50,366 nt of DNA from positions 1-50,366 of the forward strand of contig CAIKHZ010000263.1 in assembly GCA_903827375.1 (NCBI GenBank), read 5' to 3'. Under the pieces are notes generated by a model. It was given only the letters and a program-made list of their open reading frames with translations. It ran no database searches and was not told the DNA's origin. This DNA comes from Akkermansiaceae bacterium (GTDB lineage Bacteria; Verrucomicrobiota; Verrucomicrobiia; Verrucomicrobiales; Akkermansiaceae). Shown here piece by piece: positions 4,360 through 6,957 of the stretch; position 1 is the first letter of the stretch; each line of letters starts with the position of its first letter. Made by a program: the position numbers and the translations under genes.

Positions 4360-5229
4360 ATGATCCGAAAATTCATCCCCAATGCATTGGCCCTCGGGCT
4401 TATCGCCGTCACCACCGTCCAGTCCCCGGCCGCTCCGGCAGCACCCGCCACTCCTGCTACAGCGGCGGCGGAAGTTCCGGCCGTGCCCGAAACACCGGCC
4501 AAACCGGTTTTGGATCCGGCCGTGATCAAGACTGATTCCTCCTACGCCTTGGGCTTCCGCACAGGCGGCAGTTTTGCCCAGCAATTTGGCCGTTTTGGCG
4601 TGTCGGTTGGGGATTTGGACACGGAAAGTTTCCTCAAAGGGTTCTTGGCCGCCTTCAAAGGTGAGAAGCCAGGTCTCGACGAAGAAAAACTGCAAGCCGC
4701 CATGCAAGCTCTCGGCGATTTGCTCCAAATCCGCGAAAAGGACTCCGCTGCCGCCAACCTCGAAAAAGGCAAGAAATTCCTTGAGGAAAATGCCAAGCGC
4801 GCCGGCGTGGTGACCACCCCCAGTGGCCTCCAGTATGAAGTCCTGGCCAAGGGCGGTGACGAAAAATACGTCGCTCCGAAGGAAGGTGCCGCTGACAACA
4901 AGGAATTTCTCGTCAACTACAAGGGCACGCTCATTGACGGCAAGGAATTCGACGCCTCGCCTGTCGGCAAGCCCGTCCCAATGACCCTTCAGGTAGTCCC
5001 TGGTTTCAAGGAAGCCCTCACCACGATGCCGGTCGGAGCCAAATGGAAACTTTTCATCCCCAGCGCCCTCGCCTACGGTGAGGAACGCAAGAGCGCCGAT
5101 CTCGCCCCGAACAGCGTGCTGATCTTTGAACTCGAACTCGTCAAAATCCAAGACGCCCCGCCGCAACAGCAAATGCCCTTCCAAATGCCCGGCGGCCCAG
5201 GCGGCCCAGGCGGCCCTGAAGGCGAATAA
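4360..5229 (+). CDS. secreted FKBP-type peptidyl-prolyl cis-trans isomerase
   Basis: The 289-residue protein begins with a signal peptide (to about residue 27), an Ala/Pro-rich linker, then a Mip/FkpA-like helical N-terminal dimerisation region (about 57-147; YALGF at its start). An FKBP domain follows (about 147-263), with TTPSGLQYEVL, VNYKGTLIDGKEFDAS, the VVPGFKEAL helix and LAYGEE. It would help fold proteins in the periplasm. The tail is Gln/Pro/Gly-rich with repeated GGPGGP. The frame is open further upstream (to 4069), but the ATG at 4360 gives the signal peptide and is preferred. A strong terminator follows the stop codon, so the gene is probably monocistronic. Confidence 0.9.
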   Translation: MIRKFIPNALALGLIAVTTVQSPAAPAAPATPATAAAEVPAVPETPAKPVLDPAVIKTDSSYALGFRTGGSFAQQFGRFGVSVGDLDTESFLKGFLAAFKGEKPGLDEEKLQAAMQALGDLLQIREKDSAAANLEKGKKFLEENAKRAGVVTTPSGLQYEVLAKGGDEKYVAPKEGAADNKEFLVNYKGTLIDGKEFDASPVGKPVPMTLQVVPGFKEALTTMPVGAKWKLFIPSALAYGEERKSADLAPNSVLIFELELVKIQDAPPQQQMPFQMPGGPGGPGGPEGE

Positions 5230-5260
5230 GTCTTCTGCTGCAAGCGATCCATTCCATCAA

Positions 5261-5291
5261 AAGGCCGCCGTTCATTCGGCGGCCTTTTTTT
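5261..5291 (+). terminator. rho-independent terminator after the FKBP gene
   Basis: GGCCGCCG, loop TTCATT and CGGCGGCC form a perfect GC-rich stem, followed by a run of seven T. It starts about 30 bases after the stop codon of the FKBP isomerase. Confidence 0.92.
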
Positions 5292-5628
5292 GTCCGCACC
5301 ACTTGGCTGCTGCGTCTCGCGCAGACCGATAGAGGCACAGGTCTGAACAGTCATCGACGGTGAGTAGCCGAGCTTATTTTGCCGAGCCGGACACCACTGG
5401 TGGATCGAACGGTCATGTTGTGGGGCAAAGCCCAATAAGCGCTAACTTAACCCAGCGTATTAAGAAATGAGCAAACGTGGTGACTGCGGAAATTTTCCAT
5501 TGCCTTCGGATTGATCATTGCTGAGCGATGATTTTCGAGTCTTACTTGGTTAGGTTAGCGCTTATGGCGCAAAGCCCCTTCCCGCCGAACTCCTTGCCTT
5601 GGCTGCGCCTAGGTGGCGCAGGAACGGT
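5292..5628. other. spacer between convergent genes, holding a MITE-like element
   Basis: No gene is visible. The stretch lies between the FKBP terminator and the 3' end of the MFS transporter gene on the other strand. Its main content is the inverted-repeat element described at 5434-5568. Confidence 0.6.
5434..5568. mobile_element. candidate MITE with imperfect terminal inverted repeats and 9-bp flanking duplication
   Basis: The left end AATAAGCGCTAACTTAACC and the reverse complement of the right end (CATAAGCGCTAACCTAACC) match at about 19 of 22 positions. The 135-bp unit is flanked on both sides by the identical 9-mer GCAAAGCCC (5425-5433 and 5569-5577), as expected for a target-site duplication. 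No transposase is encoded, so it would have to be moved by an element elsewhere. The element family is not identified. A chance inverted repeat is possible, but the exact flanking duplication argues against it. Confidence 0.5.
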
Positions 5629-6957
5629 TCACGCACGAGGGTCGGCACCGCGGTCCCAAAAGGCGAAAAAGAAGACACAGGCGACAATGGCCGCCATACC
5701 CGAAGGGATCAGCCAAAACGTCTTCCATTGGGCGGAGGCGGCCGCCAGCAAGGCGGCATCGACCTTAGGCAGGCCAACCGAGAACATTTGCCCGAGCTGT
5801 GCGGCAAAACTGAGGCTCTCTGGGGCCTGTGCCCCCTGAATCGCGCCAGCCAGCTCGGCATGCCCGGTGACGCGGGCCCGCATCGCCACATCCGCGAGTT
5901 GGTAGCCGTAGTACATGCCCACTCCTTGGGTAAAAAACACCAACATCGATTGCACCTGGCTGCGGACCGTGAGCGGTGCCGCACGGTCGGCGTAGATGAA
6001 GCCCGTGACGAAGAAGAAGTCGTAGCAGACGCCGTGGAGCGCGATCGCAGCAAAGAGCATCAACACCGATTGAGCTGGGGCGGCAAAGGCAAACAGCGCG
6101 TAACGAAGGACCCAGGCCCCCATGCCGATGAGAATCATCCGTTTCACGCCTAGGCGGCGGAAGAATGCCGGGATGAGGAGCATGAAGATAATTTCCGACA
6201 TCTGACCAATCGACATGGACGAGGCGGGCTGCCGGAACCCCATGTCAGAGAGGAAGATCGAGGTGGTGCTGAAGTAGAAGGCCAGCGGAATACAGATGAG
6301 AATCGAGCAGAGGATGAACACCAGAAATGACGGCTTAGCGAGCATCTTGAAGGCGTCCACCATCAACAGCGAACTCCATTTAAGGGGCTGTCCTTTGGCA
6401 GGTGGCGGTGTATGCGGCAACCCAAATGCAAAAATACCGAGCACCAAGGAGGCGACACCGGCCAAAGAGAACATGTGCAAGCTTGTGGACCAGCCGAGAA
6501 AGCCGACGACGAGGCCGGCGACGATCCAACCGATGGTGCCCCAAACGCGCAGGGCTGGGAATTTACTTTGATCGCTGATGTTGGCGAAGGCGATGGAATT
6601 GCCGAGGCCGAGGGTGGGCATGAAGCAGAGCATGTGGGCGAGAAAGAGCGTCTTGACCATGACGGCATCCCCTTTGGCCGCAAATCCTGGCACCGCCAGC
6701 ATGAACACCCCACCCAGCAACAACAACACGCCCATCACCTTTTCGGAGGGAAAAAACCGATCCGCCACCAAGCCGAGAAACAAGGGGGCGAGAATGGCGG
6801 CAATCGGCGCGCTGCCATACGCCGCACCGATGATGGGTGCCAGATGGTTGCTATCCAGACAGGCTCCCAAGCTCACAAACCAAGCCCCCCAGACGAAAAA
6901 TTGGAGAAACATCATCAGCGAGAGGCGCAGCGTCGGCGTGGCGGGGGGCGGATTCAT
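5629..6957 (-). CDS. MFS transporter, nucleoside:H+ symporter-like
   Basis: A 442-residue protein with about twelve hydrophobic segments throughout. The start (LRLSLMMFLQFFVWGAWFVSLG) and the segment RVWGTIGWIVAGLVVGFLGW are typical of the nucleoside:H+ symporter (NupG/XapB-like) branch of the major facilitator superfamily. It would sit in the inner membrane and import nucleosides or related sugars using the proton gradient; the substrate cannot be told from the sequence. The frame extends to an ATG at 6993, but the family's conserved N-terminus begins right after the ATG at 6957, which is preferred. It is followed at lower coordinates by spacer with the MITE-like element. The thioredoxin gene lies 87 bases upstream on the same strand. 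Confidence 0.85.
   Translation of the reverse strand: MNPPPATPTLRLSLMMFLQFFVWGAWFVSLGACLDSNHLAPIIGAAYGSAPIAAILAPLFLGLVADRFFPSEKVMGVLLLLGGVFMLAVPGFAAKGDAVMVKTLFLAHMLCFMPTLGLGNSIAFANISDQSKFPALRVWGTIGWIVAGLVVGFLGWSTSLHMFSLAGVASLVLGIFAFGLPHTPPPAKGQPLKWSSLLMVDAFKMLAKPSFLVFILCSILICIPLAFYFSTTSIFLSDMGFRQPASSMSIGQMSEIIFMLLIPAFFRRLGVKRMILIGMGAWVLRYALFAFAAPAQSVLMLFAAIALHGVCYDFFFVTGFIYADRAAPLTVRSQVQSMLVFFTQGVGMYYGYQLADVAMRARVTGHAELAGAIQGAQAPESLSFAAQLGQMFSVGLPKVDAALLAAASAQWKTFWLIPSGMAAIVACVFFFAFWDRGADPRA

Follow-up and report, generated by a model that had tools for sequence, protein, structure and literature searches.

The closest described relatives of the element analyzed here are insertion sequences of the IS186/IS421 type. 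Copies of IS421 in Thermus are reported to be 99% identical to E. coli IS186, and the same paper lists IS421 under the IS231 subgroup of the IS4 family (PMC6352166). The target of IS186B is given as GGGGTGCCCCC in PMC12102499. According to Table 1 of PMC2266710, elements of the IS231 subgroup have the end consensus CAT-------AA--TAA and produce a 10-12-bp duplication. In Bacillus cereus, the mobile insertion cassettes MIC231 are non-autonomous and have IS4-family ends; the IS231A transposase reportedly mobilises one of them, MIC231A1, in trans (PMC3913671). No description of IS186/IS421-type MITEs was found in searches of the PMC library.

We analyzed a complete contig of an Akkermansiaceae bacterium (50,366 nucleotides, here called the window); position 1 is therefore at a contig end. 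Between the convergent genes for an FKBP-type peptidyl-prolyl isomerase (end at 5229, + strand) and a nucleoside/H+ symporter (end at 5629, - strand) lies an element of 133 bp (Table 1), which we regard with high confidence as a non-autonomous IS4-family MITE of the IS421 type, moved in trans and internally deleted. The initial annotation had already placed a MITE-like element between two convergent genes at this site; the element and its setting stand, and its length of 135 bp is corrected to 133 bp. The 22-base terminal inverted repeats match at 19 of 22 positions, as had been noted. When the 201 bases around the element were shuffled 200 times with dinucleotides preserved, the best 22-base inverted repeat of a shuffle had at most 18 matches (once), and in 101 of the 200 it had 13. 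The absence of coding content also held, in that the ORF list contains no frame of at least 80 aa inside the element (two mechanical ORFs overlap its edges). No promoter-like site was found in 5150-5750, and the sequence gives no sign of an effect of the MITE on the neighbouring genes. At the contig start (1-597, + strand), a frame looks like the N-terminal portion of an integron integrase (PF13495, 50.6 bits against a cut-off of 27; TIGR02249 weak, 29.9 bits against a cut-off of 265), and a short tandem run of AGACCCA-like units was seen by eye at about 808-852.

Table 1. Features of the MITE and its target site in the window
Feature	Position	Strand	Evidence
MITE, internally deleted copy of a 234-326-bp element	5434..5566	no strand	genome search, locus reading, alignment
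Left inverted end AATAAGCGCTAACTTAACCCAG (first base A; consensus C)	5434..5455	+	end comparison, shuffles
Right inverted end CATAAGCGCTAACCTAACCAAG, minus-strand reading	5545..5566	-	end comparison, shuffles
Target duplication, left copy GGGCAAAGCCC	5423..5433	no strand	21-element flank test, empty site
Target duplication, right copy GCGCAAAGCCC, 10/11 equal to left	5567..5577	no strand	flank test, empty site
Internal-deletion junction	5535..5536	no strand	alignment; T run common to both sides in longer copies

The 50-kb window contains just two exact copies of the 9-bp repeat GCAAAGCCC, at 5425 and 5569, a count that is not rare by itself (two or more in 26 of 100 shuffles), and the 13-base end with up to three mismatches is not enriched within the window (6 found versus 5.94 expected). 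The evidence for a repeat family comes from the rest of the genome. The element has 28 matches in the host's own genome (6.1 Mb in 370 contigs), and reading the matched DNA yielded 11 family loci, on contigs C263 (the window), C136, C169, C71, C105, C67, C280, C56, C309, C179, and C41; end-like matches on C260, C24, and C30 were left out of this count, C24 being a doubtful case. Both ends are kept at four of these loci (C263, C169, C71, and C309). The copies on C169 and C71 measure 235 and 234 bp, that on C309 only 30 bp, and two copies in the related genome G028 measure 326 and 78 bp. Alignment with the longer copies (234-326 bp) revealed that the window copy lacks their middle, with a breakpoint that is ambiguous within a T run. 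The remnant on C309 (L028, 655-684) keeps one end in full but just the last 9 bases of the second, and its flanking duplication agrees at 10 of 11 positions.

Two other kinds of repeats were encountered in these searches. AT-rich repeats, for example (ATCATCA)n and TTGATTTTTGAT (L058, L073), are dispersed across the genus and look similar to the interior of the MITE. The MITE has matches at E 0.001 in 58 of 145 genomes, mostly in its AT-rich interior, and weak matches at query positions of about 82-125 were rejected as family members, being a common AT-rich repeat as judged from six loci read. A second dispersed repeat, at about 1041-1168 of L023 (G000:C71; query about 738-869), takes 35 of the 42 matches in G028; many of its copies lie near contig ends, which suggests that it is the end of a multi-copy IS.

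The relative closest at the locus is G028 (91% over query positions 866-1901; 94% over 1-629, on a different contig). Its contig C668 contains an empty site with a single target copy, GGGGCAAAGCCCC, and without the element, reading GTCATGTTGGGGCAAAGCCCCTTCCCGCCG. The window minus the element and 11 bp aligns best to this site, with a score of 121; taking out 7-10 or 12-14 bp instead scores 107-115. Next to the target, the two genomes differ at two bases, and the common left flank comprises only 38 bp (5396-5433), beyond which G028 differs. The window locus was the only clean one among three empty-site trials: the G028 contig corresponding to C71 stops at the site, and at the C309 locus the element is missing from G028 but no exact junction could be aligned. 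A gene-order breakpoint lies at 5329-5395, at least 38 bp from the MITE, where the isomerase and symporter genes adjoin. In G028, G037, G047, G006, and G009, these two genes match separate contigs, and in G068 and G004, each a single contig, their matches are over 1 Mb apart; a misassembly may be behind the breakpoint.

We also compared the 11 bases on each side of 21 paired elements (19 MITEs and two IS), several of which share a genome and are perhaps not independent. E. coli-type IS were omitted, both of those measured having 10-bp duplications, as were G762, with a left flank of only 2 bases, and a 1495-bp pairing in L140 that consisted of two unrelated ends. The flanks of the same element agree at a mean of 9.6 of 11 positions, and swapped flanks at 5.1. 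Agreement of at least 8 of 11 was found in 20 of the 21 elements versus 62 of 420 mismatched pairs, the exception being Ww165_28 with 3 of 11, and none of 10,000 permutations reached the observed total. The agreement peaks at offset 0 and falls to a mean of 3.3-5.1 when the right flank is shifted by 1-3 bases; for the middle five bases alone it is 4.3 of 5, versus 1.7. The targets lean to GGG-N5-CCC. Together, the empty site in G028 and the 20 other elements support a duplication of 11 bp. The initial annotation had recognised a true target duplication, and its exact 9 bp are the inner part of 11 bp with one mismatch; two checks that it had named, further copies of the inverted repeat in the genome and an empty site in a relative, both came out in its favour.

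The MITE ends, CATAAGCGCTAACTTAA, equal the ends of an element in E. coli that we take to be IS186. Its E. coli copies carry the annotation 'IS4-like element IS421 family transposase', and a match is present in 2217 of 5426 genomes. Exact-end scans returned 33 stretches with 18 bases over species genomes and 47 with 17 bases over viral contigs. In the viral contigs, IS186-like sequence follows every end match (script test); both ends were located by position in 15 stretches, and the elements in the 14 of these that were read are 1338-1339 bp long. Exact end matches in Marininema and Streptococcus had no second end and look like chance. IS186/IS421 elements are like the MITE in their 17-base ends (identical to the element consensus), their G/C palindromic target, and their 10-11-bp duplication, whereas the MITE has no transposase, about one-tenth of the length, and an unrelated interior.

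Autonomous elements with such ends are also present in bacteria closer to the host. A genome of the same class (G763) carries an element of 1358 bp whose ends are exact, whose duplication is 11/11, and which encodes a transposase of 393 aa. The element of G668 (1340 bp) differs at two positions of each 17-base end and has a duplication of 11/11, and that of G762, from the same bacterial family, has 1352 bp at a contig start and likewise differs at two positions of each 17-base end; G544 and G748 have single ends only, with three and five changes. A full-length IS sharing the ends, which the initial annotation had suggested looking for, therefore exists in other genomes (E. coli and G763). With the E. 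coli transposase as query, 14 of 73 genomes of the genus matched at 1e-4, one of them near full length (G010, 32% identity, 1.6e-39). The left end of the G010 element differs at 3 of 17 bases, and its right end was not recognised. The transposases of G763, G762, G010, and the E. coli element all have the PF01609 domain and a YREK motif, with pairwise identities of 30.7-45.5%. Against the NCBIfam IS4 model (cut-off 115 bits), the E. coli element scored 133 bits, above the cut-off, and G010 109 bits, just under it.

The MITE ends fit the IS231-subgroup consensus as printed in Table 1 of PMC2266710, except that the left end has A for the first C, and the 11-bp duplication fits as well. Autonomous elements of that subgroup are 1450-5400 bp long, however, and those found here 1338-1358 bp. 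Because of this length difference, our best reading assigns the elements at the level of the IS4 family and IS421 type and leaves the subgroup open, though PMC6352166 lists IS421 under IS231. From the MIC231 cassettes, which carry genes (PMC3913671), the MITE differs in having none and in a movement in trans that we infer.

Short elements with the same ends occur in other bacteria. The 18-base end with up to two mismatches was found in 6 of 73 genomes of the genus and the 17-base end with up to one mismatch in 3 of 387 genomes drawn from the phylum, the host's own genome included in both counts. In G445, six elements of 193-214 bp have paired ends around other interiors. Paired elements, 198-472 bp long, also occur in the MAGs Ww165 (three; labelled Deltaproteobacteria), CSSed165cm_592 (two; Hydrogenedentota), and SURF_7 (one; labelled Desulfobacteraceae), and single ends only were seen in Schekmanbacteria, Gallionellaceae, and G357. 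The MITEs of G445, Ww165, CSSed165cm_592, and SURF_7 have the ends CATAAGCGCTAACTTAA with at most five changes per end and flanks that are mostly equal at 8-11 of 11 positions, while their interiors, compared by eye, differ from the window family and between the groups. The initial proposal of a non-autonomous element in this lineage was thus right as to the element and too narrow as to the lineage.

We searched for the helper in the host and its relatives. An IS186-like transposase at E 1e-4 was found neither in the host's own genome nor in 10 others with these ends, which are mostly fragmented drafts; this search had no positive control, although the same query had found G010 in the genus search. 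Because IS present in many copies tend to be lost in assembly gaps, the absence of a transposase from drafts is weak evidence. Among 384 genomes drawn from the class, the G010 protein matched five at 1e-20, and the host's own genome was not one of these. The own genome has two PF01609 matches, on C282 and C65, near contig ends; their DNA was read and both were rejected as helper, an end-pattern scan giving no match on those contigs. Comparison of the MITE interior with five autonomous elements gave only 13-18-base matches (best E 0.044; tblastx best E 0.030), none of them convincing.

Could a transposase of another group move the MITE through the same ends, its likeness to IS421 being convergence or old inheritance? 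The failure to find an IS186-like transposase in the 11 genomes with these ends would agree with this, as would an interior that resembles none of the five autonomous elements compared. However, the complete transposase-bearing elements found with these ends carry IS421-like transposases, and the duplication length and the G/C target agree with IS421-like elements, which makes this explanation improbable.

The convergent genes on both sides and a predicted RNA fold of -48.6 kcal/mol (z -5.6 versus shuffles) would suit a REP-like palindrome or a bidirectional terminator, a hairpin kept between the two genes. A strong hairpin must result from any long inverted ends, however, and G028 lacks the element beside its symporter gene; no Rfam family reaches threshold in the window, and no terminator-like site lies inside the MITE, a separate one being located at 5267-5283 behind the isomerase gene. 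We dropped the terminator and REP readings on these grounds (Rfam, empty site, and terminator scan) and consider them very improbable. Least credible of all is an attC-like recombination site or integron remnant, which was suggested by inverted GCTAAC ... GTTAGC boxes in the ends and by the weak integron-integrase match at the contig start. These boxes depart from the attC consensus RYYYAAC ... GTTRRRY, the copies are dispersed, and identical ends occur on transposase-bearing IS. Insertion of attC by the integrase leaves no target duplication of the 11-bp kind, and the attC reading was dropped because the 11-bp duplication and the clean empty site contradict it.

The window element thus remains best explained as an IS421-type MITE. 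It is short and non-coding, with inverted repeats, a target duplication matched by an empty site, and dispersed copies, and autonomous IS421-like elements with equal ends exist in other genomes, none having been found in its own. In the mechanism that we propose, the transposase of an IS421-like element elsewhere in the cell would bind the MITE ends, and the MITE would be cut out and joined into the G/C palindrome GGGGCAAAGCCCC, leaving the 11-bp duplication. Such a transposase would prefer G/C palindromes as targets. An internal deletion, which may have come before or after landing, removed the middle of the window copy.

Overall, the MITE is real but of an ordinary, already known kind. Only the host breadth, which takes in further Verrucomicrobiota, one Hydrogenedentota MAG, and MAGs labelled Deltaproteobacteria or Desulfobacteraceae, is mildly surprising; it is mildly unexpected that the 17-base ends are identical across bacteria whose MITE interiors are unrelated and whose transposases diverge. 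We tentatively suggest, while regarding it as somewhat doubtful, that IS421-type ends could be a nearly universal address: unrelated DNA would have been caught independently between the same 17-base ends in several phyla and spread as MITEs by visiting IS421-like elements, across transposases that are about 31-46% identical, and the MITEs would outlive their helpers, most bearers now being without one. For an uncultured Akkermansiaceae lineage, our analysis provides an exactly bounded insertion and its empty site, and it links repeats that have no known helper, from several bacterial groups, to a single IS group. Should the ends prove interchangeable among distant IS421-like transposases, these elements would offer a simple system in which to study how ends remain constant as transposases diverge.
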